From NCBI GenBank assembly GCA_029565395.1, contig JAKQOG010000178.1:62001-126000 (forward strand): DNA of 64,000 nt, given 5' to 3'. A program made the translations under genes and the position numbers. The DNA comes from Candidatus Hydrogenedentota bacterium. Its GTDB lineage: Bacteria > Hydrogenedentota > Hydrogenedentia > Hydrogenedentales > CAILVY01. The stretch's first letter is position 1. The number at the start of each line of letters is the position of its first letter. Under the pieces are notes generated by a model. It saw only the letters and a program-made list of their open reading frames with translations, did not search any database and had not been told where the DNA came from. Below, in pieces: positions 3,887-52,848 of this stretch.

Positions 3887-5320
3887 CTAGATCTCCTTTT
3901 CAATACATTGCCGAAGGACATTTTCAACGGCGGCGCGGCGGGCGGCGTCCAACGGCGCGCCCGGCTGCGTGCGCATCTCACGGATAGCGTCCCGCGCAAG
4001 TTGATAGGTGTCTTTGCCGCCCTGGGCCATCCACGTAGCGAAGGGGCCGCGCACCGCCAGTTTTGGCAGGAAATGTTCATTCGAACGAAGCCACTCCAAC
4101 GTATGCATCGACTCCATGTAGCCCGAACCGCGAGGCCCGACCTCTTTTACGAGATCCGCCGCGATGGTGGCATCATTCACTTCAATGCCTTGTGCCATGC
4201 GGCGCGCCATCGCGGAGATTTCTTCGTCCATGAGCAGTTGCTCTTGACTGCAGGTCATACCCGTGGCGAACATGCCGCAATTGACGATCAGATCATTCCC
4301 TGCGGCCACGGCGCAGAGCGTGCTCAGCGTTTTTTCCCAGGCGTTTTGTTCGTCGTGGGCGTGGTTGTCGGAATTGGGCGCGGTGGTGTGCGACGGCACA
4401 TGATAGAACCGCGCAAGCTGCGCGCCCGCGATGCGGCACAGGCTGGTTTCCACGGAACCGACCAGCGCAAAGCCGGTGCGCATGTCGACGGTGGTCCAGG
4501 AATTGGCATAGAGCACGTTCGCGCCCGGCTTGAGCAATTGCGCGATCACGATGCCGGAAAGACACTCCGCGTTGTTCACGGTCAAGAGGCCCGCCAAGGT
4601 GTAAGGCGCGGAAAAACCCGCGATGGGTTCGGGCAGGATCGCGAGGGGCACGCCGGTTTCCACCGTATCGCGCACGGCCTCGCACACGCCCGACTCCCAA
4701 AACAACGGGCTGGTGGGCGACAATTGACTGATGCCGTAGACCTGCTTCCGCATGTTGCCATTGAACGCGCCCCGCAGCATTTCGATCACGGCATGATTCA
4801 CCGGGGCATTGTCCGTGGAAAAAAAGATCGGCTTGCGGCTGTTCTCGATACAGGCTTTCACGCCATAGAGCAAGGTGGCCTTGGGAACCGGCACGTCCTG
4901 CGGCATCACGGGAATGCCGATCATGTCGATATTCGGAAGCGCCTCGCAAAGCCGAGCAAATTGTTCCACATCCGCGACGGTTGAGGGCCTCGTTTCGCCC
5001 GTTTCAGAGTCCACCCAGAACACCGCATTGTGCCCGGCGGCGATTTTCGAGGTCCCATTACCCAGTACAAAGGACTCTTTCCCCTCACGGTCAAACACCG
5101 CGAAGTGCCGCGGGACTGTAGCCAGCGCCGCTTCCACCCGCGCGCGGGGCATTCGCACGACGGCGGCATTCTCGTCCACCGGCAGGCCGGACTCTTTCAG
5201 GAATGCCAGCATGCGCGGTTCCAGGACCTTTACCCCGGTGTTTTCCAAAATATCCAAGCTGGCCTCATGAATGGCCTGGGTATCCCCGTCTGATAGCACC
5301 GAAAATGTTGCAAGTTGCAT
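3887..5320 (-). CDS. MttB-family (non-pyrrolysine) corrinoid methyltransferase
   Basis: A 477-residue member of the trimethylamine methyltransferase (MttB) superfamily. Characterised relatives move a methyl group from a methylated amine to a corrinoid protein. True trimethylamine enzymes need an in-frame amber codon read as pyrrolysine; this frame is uninterrupted, so it belongs to the non-pyrrolysine branch, which includes glycine betaine methyltransferase. Typical blocks are LDILENTGVKV near the N terminus, FWVDSETGETRPST, and GSGYMESMHTLEWLRSNEHF near the C terminus. No corrinoid protein, activase or second methyltransferase is next to it. It is co-transcribed with the Gfo/Idh/MocA gene downstream. 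Confidence 0.85.
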   Translation of the reverse strand: MQLATFSVLSDGDTQAIHEASLDILENTGVKVLEPRMLAFLKESGLPVDENAAVVRMPRARVEAALATVPRHFAVFDREGKESFVLGNGTSKIAAGHNAVFWVDSETGETRPSTVADVEQFARLCEALPNIDMIGIPVMPQDVPVPKATLLYGVKACIENSRKPIFFSTDNAPVNHAVIEMLRGAFNGNMRKQVYGISQLSPTSPLFWESGVCEAVRDTVETGVPLAILPEPIAGFSAPYTLAGLLTVNNAECLSGIVIAQLLKPGANVLYANSWTTVDMRTGFALVGSVETSLCRIAGAQLARFYHVPSHTTAPNSDNHAHDEQNAWEKTLSTLCAVAAGNDLIVNCGMFATGMTCSQEQLLMDEEISAMARRMAQGIEVNDATIAADLVKEVGPRGSGYMESMHTLEWLRSNEHFLPKLAVRGPFATWMAQGGKDTYQLARDAIREMRTQPGAPLDAARRAAVENVLRQCIEKEI

Positions 5321-48277: not shown

Positions 48278-48625
48278 CTATTTCGTACATGCCTGAAGTA
48301 TTTTATGAAGCTGTGAAATAATGACTGGCAACGCTCGCTCAATAGTGCTCCAAACCACATCCATGTCAACATCGAAATAAGCATGAATAAGCCTGTTCCG
48401 CATGTCCGCCATTGTGCGCCAAGGGATTTCAGGATGTTCCTCGCGCAGTTCCGGGCTGATACGTGAGGCAGCTTCCCCTATGATTTCCAGATTGCGAACA
48501 AATAAATGCTGAAGAGGAGGATTTGATTCTACTTCTAGCCGCGAATGCTTGCCCGCATATTCTACTGCCTGAACCGCTGCCTCAAGCATATGGCGAATAC
48601 GGTTTTTGTCCGAATCAAGCAGCAT
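48278..48625 (-). CDS. hepT: HepT-family RNase toxin
   Basis: A 115-residue HepT (DUF86, HEPN) protein. The active Rx4HxY motif is [24 protein letters not shown] and [20 protein letters not shown] are typical surrounding helices. HepT cleaves RNA or is silenced by AMPylation on its HxY tyrosine by the partner MntA. The start overlaps the mntA stop by 11 bases. Complete and likely functional. Confidence 0.88.
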
Positions 48626-48914
48626 ACTGGACCACGGCAGATTTAACGGCTTCTTCCCTAAAATACCGGCTGAGATCTTTTGCTGTCCGAATATCCGCTT
48701 TACGGCCTACAATCCTGGAGAGTTCACGTTCCATTTCAACTACGTCAAACAAGGTTGGAATGTTATCAGGGTCAAACTCAACAAGAACATCCACGTCGCT
48801 TTCCGGCCCAAAACGGTCTGTCAATACTGAGCCGAAAAGGGACAGTTTTAGAATGTGGCGCCGCTTGCAAAAATCCGAAATATCTTCTTGGTTTATCTGA
48901 ATGGGCAGGTTCAT
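48615..48914 (-). CDS. mntA: MntA-family nucleotidyltransferase antitoxin
   Basis: About 99 residues from [15 protein letters not shown]. The minimal nucleotidyltransferase motif GSx10DxD is [20 protein letters not shown]. The known partner activity is polyadenylylation of the HepT HxY tyrosine, which neutralises it. The frame opens at 48935 with TTG, but AAGGA before the 48914 ATG is better. It lies upstream of hepT in one unit. Likely a stabilising or defence toxin-antitoxin module. Confidence 0.88.
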
Positions 48915-48994
48915 TTTTCCATTTCCTTGTTTCAAGGCAGAAAAAGTATACCACAGGTTTGATCTGGTTATGGACTCTTTAGGACAAGGCCAGT

Positions 48995-49708: not shown

Positions 49709-50410
49709 TCATTCGCCGCGGTAAAAATTCTGGTTATTCAAGGCGCGCACTACGCCAAAGTGAGATTGCCAGCCGATTTCTTTTTTGCCGACGCAAATGG
49801 TGCAGGTGCCCACCGGCGGGTTTCCCCGGAGCACTAGTTGTTCCGGAATATCGGGGGTGTTGAGAATGTGATCCACGAGGGGATCCATGCCGATGCCATA
49901 GAGCGCGTTTACCTCGCGCACCCGCACCCCCGGCGCCGCTTCGATGATGCGTGCGCGAAACACTTCCCGTTCGGCCTGCGAAACCAAGTCGATTTTAGTT
50001 ACCACGGCAATGTCGGCCAGCGATAGCATTGGGCCCACTTTACGGGGCAGATTCATCCCGCTGGTGGCTTCCATCACCATCAGCCCGAGACCGCCGTCCA
50101 CATAGGGGGCGCAGCGGAGACAAAGCCCGGCGGTTTCCACCAGCAACACGTCCGCATCGGCCTTCTGGGCCCATTGCAGCGCATCCCCCAGAATCAGAAC
50201 ACTGCAATGGTCGGGGCAAAGTTCGCCGGAGTAAATTTTTCGCGCGGGAATTTCAAACTCCCGTGCAAACACTTCATCTTCGTCGGCAAACTGGACGTCA
50301 ATTTTCAGGAAGGCCGGGTGAAGGCCGTTATTGATAAGTCTCCGCGTCAGGTGGCGAAGCACGCTGGTCTTCCCGGTAGTGGCCGGGCCCGCACAGATGG
50401 CCAATTTCAT
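49709..50410 (-). CDS. SIMIBI-type GTPase with CxxC motifs
   Basis: A 233-residue nucleotide-binding protein related to HypB/UreG/CooC. The P-loop is GPATTGKTS, Walker B is DVLLVETAGLCLRC, and the G4 motif is TKID. A GELCPDHC segment plus CLRC and the C-terminal CTICVGKK add probable metal ligands. HypB, UreG and CooC insert nickel into hydrogenase, urease and CO dehydrogenase, so a similar job is inferred. Its start overlaps the ATPase stop by four bases and the Fe-S gene follows. Confidence 0.75.
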   Translation of the reverse strand: MKLAICAGPATTGKTSVLRHLTRRLINNGLHPAFLKIDVQFADEDEVFAREFEIPARKIYSGELCPDHCSVLILGDALQWAQKADADVLLVETAGLCLRCAPYVDGGLGLMVMEATSGMNLPRKVGPMLSLADIAVVTKIDLVSQAEREVFRARIIEAAPGVRVREVNALYGIGMDPLVDHILNTPDIPEQLVLRGNPPVGTCTICVGKKEIGWQSHFGVVRALNNQNFYRGE

Positions 50411-51219
50411 GCCTTTGCCTCCATCGCCGTGAAAGCTGCGTGTTCGCGGACGTCTTCCATCGTCATGCGTCCGCCCATGCGAATACGCTCCCGCAGTTTG
50501 GTCAGGGTGTCATCAATCCGGGTTACCGCTCCCGCAAACAGCCGCTCGGCGGCATCCGTCTCGATAAACTGCGTGACGCACCCATTCTGCATCACTATCC
50601 GGGCATCGGAAAGCAACGCAATCCGCGGATCGTGGGTCACAAACACAAAGATTTTTTTATATTGCCGCAACAATTCCAAAGCGCGCGTACGATGAATGCC
50701 CGCGTTTTCCACCTCGTCCAGCAGCACAATGGGGGTGTTGCAAATGATGGTCGCATCCGCAATCAAAAGCGCACGGGTCTGCCCCCCGGATAACTCTGTC
50801 ATTCGGATCGACGCGATGACGGGTTCGCCGGTCAACTGATTCGCAAAATCCAGCGTCTTCTCCATCAGCGACGACACCATGCCGCCATCATTGGTGCGAA
50901 TCCCCGCATGGGTCCGTAAAAATTCGCCCACCGGCAAATCGGACAGGAAGTTGGTGTGCTGCGTTATCAACGCTATGGGATTTAACGACGGATCCTCTCT
51001 ATATTGCGCGGGGGGGGTCTTCCCATCTATCAAAATCCGGCGCCCGGTCGGGGTATCGCCATTGGCAAATAACTCAATATCGTTGATAAACGTGGTTTTG
51101 CCCGACCCTGTCGGGCCCACAATACTGATCACCTGACCCATGGAAAGATCGATTCGCGCCACCGGTTCCGGCGTGGAATCTTTTCCGTGTCCGCCGAGGA
51201 TTGTAATCTGTTGTATCAT
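50407..51219 (-). CDS. ABC-type ATPase of a metallocofactor operon
   Basis: A 270-residue soluble ATP-binding protein. Walker A is GPTGSGKTTF, the signature is LSGGQ (MTELSGGQTRALLIADATI), Walker B is PIVLLDEVENAG and the switch is FVTHDPRI. There is no membrane subunit gene. It is first in the operon with GTPase and Fe-S protein. Promoter TTGACA-N16-TATAAT is directly upstream and an Rrf2 gene lies beyond. It may power transfer of a cofactor or metal rather than import (inference). Confidence 0.75.
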   Translation of the reverse strand: MIQQITILGGHGKDSTPEPVARIDLSMGQVISIVGPTGSGKTTFINDIELFANGDTPTGRRILIDGKTPPAQYREDPSLNPIALITQHTNFLSDLPVGEFLRTHAGIRTNDGGMVSSLMEKTLDFANQLTGEPVIASIRMTELSGGQTRALLIADATIICNTPIVLLDEVENAGIHRTRALELLRQYKKIFVFVTHDPRIALLSDARIVMQNGCVTQFIETDAAERLFAGAVTRIDDTLTKLRERIRMGGRMTMEDVREHAAFTAMEAKA

Positions 51220-51251
51220 GATATATGCTCCTTTGGTTGTCTCTATAACTT

Positions 51252-51279
51252 ATTATATCATAAAACTCTGGAATGTCAA
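51252..51279 (-). promoter_or_regulatory. consensus sigma-70 promoter of the Fe-S operon
   Basis: On the minus strand TTGACA (51279-51274) and TATAAT (51257-51252), 16 bases apart; both hexamers are perfect. It is about 33 bases before the ATPase ATG. The short gap to the Rrf2 gene makes it a likely Rrf2 target. Confidence 0.8.
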
Positions 51280-51297: not shown

Positions 51298-51699
51298 TTA
51301 TAACACGTCGGCAATGGTGGTATTTTCTAGTTTGGTGGAGACGTAATCCCGGATATCTTTAAACACCGCAATCAGTTTTGTTTCTTTTTCCACAGGGGTG
51401 GATTCGTAGAAGTAGGTGCTGACGGATTCCGTGGGGGCCAATGCGCCGTCAAAGAGCCGAACGATTTCAGCTAACATAATCGTGTCCGGCGTTTTAGAGA
51501 GCCGATAGCCGCCGTGCTGGCCTTTTTGGCTATAAACATACCGCGCATTTTTTAATGTCAATAAGATTTGTTGAAGAAATTTCTGCGGGATGGCCTGTTC
51601 TTGAGCGATCGTTTCCCCATTGATATATTCCCCTGGTTTATGCCGTGCCAGGCAAATCAGGGCCAATAGGGCGTATTCACTTCTAGTCGTCAATTTCAT
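51298..51699 (-). CDS. Rrf2-family transcription regulator
   Basis: About 133 residues from MKLTTRSEYALLALICLARH, the typical Rrf2 winged-helix start, then AQEQAIPQKFLQQILLTLKN and SQKGQHGGYRLSK. The three cysteines that hold the Fe-S cluster of IscR or NsrR are absent, so it must sense something else, as CymR does. It is on the same strand as, and directly upstream of, the ATPase-GTPase-Fe-S operon, which makes it the likely controller. Confidence 0.88.
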   Translation of the reverse strand: MKLTTRSEYALLALICLARHKPGEYINGETIAQEQAIPQKFLQQILLTLKNARYVYSQKGQHGGYRLSKTPDTIMLAEIVRLFDGALAPTESVSTYFYESTPVEKETKLIAVFKDIRDYVSTKLENTTIADVL

Positions 51700-51808
51700 A
51701 ATAGACAATATTCCAAAAAGTTTGCTAATTGAGAATATCAGATTCCTTTACCAGTTGCAACTGCAAATTTTGCACGTGACCTTTGAGATGGGAAATTTCA
51801 AAAATTAC

Positions 51809-51882: not shown

Positions 51883-52848
51883 ATGCATCGCACAACAACA
51901 AAAGGGTTCACGCTCATTGAATTGCTGGTTGTCATTGCCATTATTGGAATTTTAGCTGCAATCCTGTTGCCTGCGCTGGCCCGCGCGCGGGAGGCGGCGC
52001 GGCGCTCATCGTGTCAGAACAATCTTAAGGAATTCTCATTAATATTCAAGATGTATTCGAATGAGAGCCGCGGGGAGATGTTTCCGCCCTGTGCGCCTTT
52101 CGGGAATCCGTTTATGAACGGCATGACGCTCTTTAGCGCGCCCAGCGCTGCGGCGGTGTATCCGGAATATCTATCGGATTTGAACATATCAAAATGCCCT
52201 TCGGATACCGGTGTGGACGCGGGCGGGACCTATGTTGCCGCGCGCCTTCCGAATGACGGTGATTTTGAGAGTTGGGTGCAATCTGCACGGGATGCAGGAG
52301 ACAAGGATTCGGAGAATTATTTCCTTAGCGCGCAATTGGGCCGGTCCTATATGTATAAAGGATTCGCCTCGACCTGTATTGAAGAATATTATGGGATCTG
52401 GGGCGCGATGGGAGCGCAGCCGTTTGATCGCGTGATAAATGTAATCAACATCCAGCCGGTAGTGCGGGTGAAAGACTTTTCCGATGACCTCGGCATGGAC
52501 GCGGGCAGTTGGCCCTCCATGGTGGATCAAACGATTGCAAAAGGCACGGCGGGCGGCGATAAAGTGCTGCGGTTGCGTGAAGGTATTGAGCGGTTCTTTA
52601 TAACCGACATAAATAATCCGGCGGCCAGCGCCCATGCACAAAGCACCATCGCGGTACAATGGGACACCTTTGGCAGTTTTGGAGATTCAGCCGCGACGGC
52701 GGGAGGAACCGTCTTCAATCATGTTCCTGGCGGATGCAATGTGTTGTACATGGATGGCCATGCCGCGTTCATCCGGTATCCAGGAGAGTATCCGGTTGTC
52801 AATGATTCCGGAATGTTACTGGAAAACAGCCACTTCGGTTTATATTGA
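51883..52848 (+). CDS. DUF1559-type prepilin-like protein
   Basis: A 321-residue protein. The N-terminal cleavage/methylation motif is [20 protein letters not shown], cut before Phe in type IV pilin-like proteins. A type II secretion G-like mature domain follows with [20 protein letters not shown], and a C-terminal [20 protein letters not shown] block typical of DUF1559. Such proteins are numerous in Planctomycetota and Lentisphaerota; each genome carries tens. It is probably surface or periplasmic. GGGAGAAG precedes the ATG. Confidence 0.88.

Follow-up and report, generated by a model that had tools for sequence, protein, structure and literature searches.

A widespread ABC ATPase, GTPase and Fe-S protein operon and its possible role in metallocluster assembly or delivery under sulfur limitation

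The soluble ABC ATPase, the HypB/UreG-like GTPase and the Fe-S protein encoded by a short operon of a Candidatus Hydrogenedentota bacterium may together form an engine that assembles or delivers a metallocluster in response to sulfur limitation. This is the best explanation of the trio, held tentatively and at somewhat less than an even chance. It rests on the genes themselves, their conservation, putative ligand residues, the operon partners, the sulfur-related gene neighborhood and a candidate two-promoter operator in relatives. In the proposed mechanism, the cytosolic engine would be driven by ATP and GTP and controlled by a CymR-type Rrf2 repressor that answers to the supply of sulfur in the form of cysteine. 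The sulfur itself would come from a cysteine desulfurase, which is encoded in the operon in most relatives and would, for the organism studied here, presumably be the housekeeping enzyme. The Fe-S protein would serve as scaffold or carrier, holding a [4Fe-4S] cluster as well as another metal site of the Cys2His2 type. The ABC ATPase would alter the conformation of this protein, as SufC does for SufB, and the GTPase, with a Cys/His site of its own, would gate the entry or release of metal. The client is probably an anaerobic sulfur-acquisition enzyme.

The stretch of DNA analyzed, called the window in the following, comprises 64,000 nucleotides of contig JAKQOG010000178.1. The ATPase, GTPase, Fe-S protein and Rrf2 genes that a preliminary description had assigned to one operon and its regulator are all present on the same strand, with family-model scores above the respective cut-offs (Table 1). 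A 4-nt overlap joins the ATPase and GTPase genes, and a gap of 15 nt separates the GTPase gene from the Fe-S protein gene. The perfect promoter of the preliminary description was likewise recovered; TG precedes its second hexamer, and among the 5 sites of any quality returned by the promoter scan (against 3.0 in shuffles) it is the only notable one. The span originally given to the operon, 49709-51279, holds the promoter, the ATPase and the GTPase, with the third member lying outside. For the Rrf2 gene, the open reading frame list gives a TTG start at 51708; the ATG at 51699 agrees with the orthologues and is likely the true start. Within the operon, the Pfam scan found no membrane subunit gene for the ABC ATPase. 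A NifS gene is absent from the operon as well, and the window genome contains no close NifS copy (best identity 27%). It also holds for the window that no target enzyme gene is adjacent.

Table 1. Positions of the trio genes, their regulator and the promoter-like site in the window.
Feature	Position	Strand	Assignment
ABC-type ATPase, soluble, 270 aa, first gene of the operon	50407-51219	(-)	PF00005, 55.5 bits (cut-off 25)
GTPase, G3E/SIMIBI, HypB/UreG-like, 233 aa	49709-50410	(-)	PF02492 (cobW), 41.3 bits (cut-off 20.7)
Fe-S protein, 232 aa	48995-49693	(-)	PF04060, 31.8 bits (cut-off 23)
Rrf2-family regulator, CymR-like	51298-51699 (listed open reading frame to 51708)	(-)	PF02082, 105.7 bits (cut-off 30)
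Promoter-like TTGACA-N16-TATAAT	51279-51252	(-)	12/12 match, sigma-70-like

Directly downstream of the trio (48278-48935, (-) strand), a HepT-like HEPN protein (PF01934) and an MNT-type nucleotidyltransferase (PF01909) are encoded, likely a toxin-antitoxin pair. On the other side and on the (+) strand lie a gene for a protein with a prepilin-like N-terminal start, as judged by eye (51883-52848), and a ZnuA-ZnuC-ZnuB type metal importer (PF01297, PF00005, PF00950; 52891-55309), about 1.2 kb from the Rrf2 gene. A link between this importer and the trio was rejected as coincidence, since none of the other Hydrogenedentota loci inspected showed the Znu set.

A scan of the species-genome collection with the Fe-S protein returned 129 relatives, 80 of which were kept; together with the window they make up 81 loci, referred to as clade A. 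Among the loci kept, the trio module occurs in more than 15 phyla as labeled, archaea included. The bacterial labels are Hydrogenedentes, Chloroflexi, Thermodesulfobacteriota, Planctomycetes, Omnitrophota, Acidobacteria, Bdellovibrionales, Elusimicrobia, Verrucomicrobia, Lentisphaerae, Myxococcota, Alphaproteobacteria, Actinomycetota, Heliobacterium and Schekmanbacteria, and Thermoplasmata and Micrarchaeota appear as further labels. The spread is patchy, with the trio in 8 of 68 genomes of its own phylum and in 4 of 199 genomes of the class Anaerolineae. In the plasmid collection, the Fe-S protein had no match and the GTPase had one, a Fusobacterium record. No description of the trio module was found in the open-access papers covered by the literature search, outside of which most subscription papers fell, and the module seems to be undescribed so far.

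Gene orders and neighbors were counted by tblastn because some genes of GC-rich loci had escaped greedy gene calling. The order Rrf2-ABC-GTPase-NifS-FeS is found at 24 of the 81 loci, ABC-GTPase-NifS-FeS with no Rrf2 upstream at 22, ABC-GTPase-FeS alone at 15, and Rrf2-ABC-GTPase-FeS, the arrangement lacking NifS, at 12. Other arrangements account for 8 loci, six of which were checked for contig ends. The Fe-S protein is present in 81/81 by construction, the loci having been gathered with it. A NifS-type cysteine desulfurase is thus located inside the operon at 49/81 loci. The operon NifS of the relatives reaches 494.8 bits with TIGR03402 (cut-off 530.75) and matches cysteine desulfurases of the PDB at E~1e-105.

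The Fe-S protein consists of an N-terminal PF04060 four-cysteine motif and a C-terminal domain of predicted β structure (residues 81-230, blocks with pLDDT 83-97). All three trio proteins show striking conservation: alignments drew on 42 (Fe-S protein), 35 (GTPase) and 29 (ATPase) of the 81 loci and gave mean column identities of 54%, 80% and 59%, respectively. In the Fe-S protein, C14, C17, C22, C39, C134, H138, C202 and H208 are invariant in 69 sequences of clade A and the related clade B introduced below. The protein had been called CdhD-like. This applies to the N-terminal cluster motif of about 45 residues, whereas the other ~190 residues are not CFeSP-like: the CdhD/AcsC structure 4djd is matched at E=0.0045 over only about 52 N-terminal profile positions, PF03599 is absent in the Pfam scan, and the corrinoid-binding part of CdhD/AcsC remains unmatched. 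The trio protein has the four-cysteine motif in common with the large CFeSP subunit, but its remainder is a 150-residue β domain that does not match this corrinoid protein. Two structure models (pLDDT 78 and 86) found no Foldseek match in the PDB at E<=0.001, and their best VIA Z scores, 5.4 and 4.3, lie within the stated noise of that tool.

In the ATPase, the Walker A, LSGGQ and DE..N motifs are invariant. The GTPase belongs to the PF02492 (CobW/HypB/UreG) domain family, and HypB (TIGR00073) and UreG (TIGR00101) are its best NCBIfam models, though both equivalog cut-offs are missed by far (42.2 versus 121.2 bits and 30.7 versus 204.2 bits). C65, H68, C97, C100, C203 and C206 are invariant in 71/71 GTPase sequences from three clades and are metal-ligand-like, that is, putative metal ligands; in the alignment, a Cys and a His of E. 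coli HypB correspond to C65 and H68. Compared with the HypB/UreG nickel GTPases, with which it shares the G3E fold family, the trio GTPase forms its own family in the tree, carries the extra C97/C100/C203/C206 and has a fixed ABC ATPase partner, and no HypA/UreE-like partner was seen with it. It is an undescribed G3E/SIMIBI subfamily. The binding of cluster and metal by the two proteins, as well as the direction of transfer, is inferred.

The ATPase-GTPase pair occurs in two further clades. Clade B was recognized from distant copies matched by the Fe-S profile in heliobacteria (identities of 45-48% for the ABC ATPase, 52-54% for the GTPase and ~30% for the Fe-S protein), with no Rrf2 or NifS alongside. 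Clade C, first recognized from the Fusobacterium record, has a DUF1858/SBP_bac_6 protein in place of the Fe-S protein; among its 21 loci, the DUF1858 protein is found in 13 and another SBP_bac_6 protein in 4. In the phylum of Heliobacterium, GTPase profile matches occur in 51 of 398 genomes. Except for one contig end, the ATPase adjoins the GTPase in all 27 clade B and 21 clade C loci. The GTPase tree, built from 23 clade A, all 27 clade B and all 21 clade C sequences with E. coli HypB, YjiA and ArgK as outgroups, recovers each of A, B and C as monophyletic (support 0.90, 0.97 and 1.0); the grouping of all three is weakly supported (0.43), and A+B is unresolved. A gene for the hybrid cluster protein (Hcp) lies beside the pair at 8 of 21 clade C loci and at none of 108 clade A and B loci, counts that are the same by gene calling and by tblastn. 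In the Fusobacterium locus (L135), the clade C pair is followed by a Znu set similar to that of the window, with two ZnuA genes.

In clades A and B, the ABC ATPase is always paired with the Fe-S protein, and the four-cysteine cluster motif of the latter is invariant. Both features would also suit ATP-driven electron transfer, in which the two proteins act as a low-potential reductase that activates a client and the GTPase serves as a switch; AtwA has an analogous role in the methyl-coenzyme M reductase activation complex. This is unlikely, however: clade C swaps the Fe-S protein for a solute-binding-type DUF1858 protein, so that the pair itself needs no electron carrier, and the operon cysteine desulfurase is left unexplained.

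The connection to sulfur emerges from the neighborhood. Searched by tblastn with thirteen sulfur-acquisition queries, at least one sulfur-acquisition gene was found at 23/81 clade A, 4/27 clade B and 0/21 clade C loci (Fisher p=0.003 for A versus C); because the queries were taken from the clade A loci themselves, it is clade C that provides a fair comparison. At 58/81 clade A loci, no sulfur gene lies within the contig sequence searched, many of these contigs being short. The sulfur-positive loci carry the labels Chloroflexi, Omnitrophota, Planctomycetota, Proteobacteria, Myxococcota, Actinomycetota, Acidobacteria, Hydrogenedentota, Schekmanbacteria and Heliobacterium. Their genes encode CysK (12/81 loci), MET17, sulfate and sulfonate importers, MarDK and a sulfur encapsulin. 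In L038, an operon for sulfate import encloses the trio, with Sbp and CysT over cut-off, and in L070 the trio lies ahead of Sbp and CysT; a taurine-type binding protein is found in L062 and a sulfonate-type one in L057. MarDK adjoins the trio in L042 (Pararhodospirillum), where MarD matches 9fmg/9d9u over its full length (~1040 bits), and in L059 (Heliobacterium). Shell genes of family-2A sulfur encapsulins are present in L042 (818-1735, NF041162 over cut-off) and L048 (17081-18058, SrpI 6x8m at E 1e-123). MET17-CysK-MetX-MetW occurs in L024 and L041, MetX and MetW being named by eye and from the Pfam tally. That tally covered 117 of 161 neighbor candidates (11 were cut by length or rank, and 33 short or doubtful open reading frames were dropped by hand) and gave 11 PALP/CysK-type proteins, 9 transport permeases, 8 Cys_Met_Meta_PP, 5 nitrogenase-like, 3 solute-binding, 3 rhodanese and 2 MetW proteins.

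The cysteine desulfurase and CysK/MET17 as neighbors, together with rhodanese/persulfide-dioxygenase-type genes near the trio in L027 and L048, could also indicate a sulfur-trafficking relay, which would hand persulfide or sulfide to CysK/MET17 and make no metallocluster. The invariant metal-ligand-like residues in both the GTPase and the Fe-S protein argue against such a relay, as does the clade C pair beside Hcp, and it is considered distinctly unlikely.

The window Rrf2 protein belongs to the Rrf2 superfamily (TIGR00738, 114.1 bits, cut-off 73.3) and remains below the equivalog cut-off of CymR (NF047409, 73.3 bits, cut-off 195). Its closest solved structures are 4cic and then B. subtilis CymR, 2y75. 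The regulator had been described as Cys-free. It indeed lacks the cluster triad of the IscR/NsrR type, but it contains one cysteine, at position 19; among 36 orthologues upstream of the operon, 25 are devoid of Cys and 9 contain a single one. CymR, the repressor of cysteine metabolism, is the closest named Rrf2 model and the second-best structure, and is likewise without cluster cysteines. Different from CymR, the operator in the trio relatives sits at the regulator's own and the neighboring promoter. At 27 of 71 loci, a 23-bp candidate operator, TATGACTAATCCGATAGGAWAAG, precedes the ATPase gene with a lowest score of 14.7 (99th percentile of shuffles 8.7, maximum 15.2), the matrix having been trained on these same sites. 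Independently of matrix training, it also precedes the Rrf2 gene in 15 loci. Of 58 sites scoring >=14 in 1142 kb, 49 lie at ATPase or Rrf2 promoters by hand count, and the remaining 9 agree with the background level, given 7 sites in 805 kb of control loci. Upstream of the neighboring CysK/MET17 genes, no shared operator was found except for one weak site at L024, and a common regulon is hence unsupported. The window, the segment 51220-51300 included, holds no operator of this type (best score 4.8, inside the shuffle range), so that the footprint target proposed earlier in this segment is only putative.

Another way to connect the trio to sulfur would be as a replacement of siroheme sulfite reductase, reducing sulfite or making it usable where CysJI is absent. 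The sulfite reductase search covered 50 of the 80 relative loci. Outside its own phylum, 32/50 trio-positive genomes lack a NIR_SIR domain, but 18/50 keep it; within the phylum, it is missing in 5/8 trio-positive versus 17/60 trio-negative genomes, a difference (3/8 versus 43/60 with the domain) that has p=0.10, and Anaerolineae show no difference (1/4 versus 40/195). Such a replacement would fit with the genes for sulfate import found near the trio in L038 and L070 and with a heliobacterium described as growing on sulfate without CysJI (PMC9147875). Many of the genomes searched retain CysH- and CysD-type genes, but a role in sulfation is possible for the CysDN genes of P. oryzae and others. 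Production of sulfite or APS in the absence of a siroheme reductase is thus possible in some organisms; the trio is no consistent explanation for this, and the replacement is judged improbable. CysDN-type sulfate activation genes were seen by eye in L103, L110, L111 and L112, from genomes without a NIR_SIR match, and some of them adjoin sulfotransferase-like genes.

The preliminary description had read the trio as a metallocofactor maturation machine for nickel or corrinoid enzymes. The general class gains support from the invariant Cys/His residues of the GTPase and the Fe-S protein, from the operon cysteine desulfurase and from the clade C pair beside Hcp. The proposed clients fared worse. 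A trio that supplies nickel to a hydrogenase or to CO dehydrogenase, or that switches on a corrinoid methyltransferase (for example, MttB), would agree with the kinship of the GTPase to HypB and UreG, with the PF04060 motif common to the Fe-S protein and CFeSP, with the clade C pairs beside Hcp, a prismane/CODH-family protein, and DUF364 'heavy-metal chelation' genes, and with one clade B locus (L129) near a corrinoid activator and a URO-D methyltransferase. The MttB gene reported about 45 kb from the trio does exist (G000:C171:65920-67317, corresponding to 3920-5317 of the window) and is one of three in the genome. However, no MttB or HycE relative was found at any of the 129 trio or pair loci (tblastn E<=1e-10), the GTPase falls far below the HypB and UreG cut-offs, and the trio neighbors are sulfur genes. 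The evidence therefore favors a connection with the supply of sulfur over one with nickel or corrinoids, and there is little likelihood that the trio serves these clients. A role in maturing methylthio-alkane reductase or further nitrogenase-like enzymes, suggested by MarDK beside the trio in Pararhodospirillum and Heliobacterium, is highly improbable, and MarDK was rejected as a general client: it is found at only 2/81 loci, PF00148 is absent from the window genome and exceeds its cut-off in the phylum only in two trio-negative genomes, and MarHDK is described as having been produced in R. capsulatus with MarB (PMC12552129).

For the assembly or delivery of a metallocluster under sulfur limitation, the nearest precedent is the Rrf2-iscS-iscU-trmU operon of C. 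perfringens (cpe1786-1783), described as induced by cysteine limitation (PMC2940859). In comparison, the trio module has the ABC ATPase, the GTPase and the Fe-S protein in the place of IscU. The SUF system also joins a soluble ABC ATPase to a cluster-carrying partner and a cysteine desulfurase, often with an Rrf2 regulator, and has all of these in common with the trio module. It differs in that the GTPase is invariant in the trio module, the Fe-S partner is a PF04060 plus β-domain protein, and neither SufB nor SufD is found among the trio operon members. SUF comprises SufBCD with SufS/SufE; SufC, its ABC ATPase, is covered in PMC8593673.

If correct, widespread genes that match only generic family models would represent a separate route of metallocluster assembly tied to sulfur supply. 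This would provide a handle on how anaerobes build clusters under cysteine scarcity and, as the clade C pair adjoins Hcp, perhaps insight into the maturation of the hybrid cluster protein. The predicted operator and the invariant ligands make the proposal directly testable in cultivable hosts, for example, Heliobacterium and Pararhodospirillum.

A broader proposal, for which we claim possibility rather than likelihood, takes the ABC ATPase-GTPase pair itself as the engine of a metallocluster assembly system that is as yet undescribed and would stand alongside Nif, Isc, Suf and the nickel systems. Its cargo subunits would be interchangeable: clades A and B would use the Fe-S/β-domain protein, and clade C a cytosolic DUF1858 protein of solute-binding type that is often adjacent to Hcp. 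Clade A would have become part of the response of many anaerobes and of archaea to sulfur limitation.

Two further settings of the pair were observed. In L194, L196, L201 and L211, clade C pairs have FecCD-type importers and 'heavy-metal chelation' proteins (DUF364/DUF4213) as neighbors, and L211 additionally encodes a methyltransferase and a small NTPase; this is another undescribed neighborhood of the same engine. In L129 (3711-6433), genes for a RACo-type corrinoid activator and a URO-D-family methyltransferase adjoin both the clade B trio and a gene of the MET17 type; this may be a corrinoid methionine synthesis cluster.
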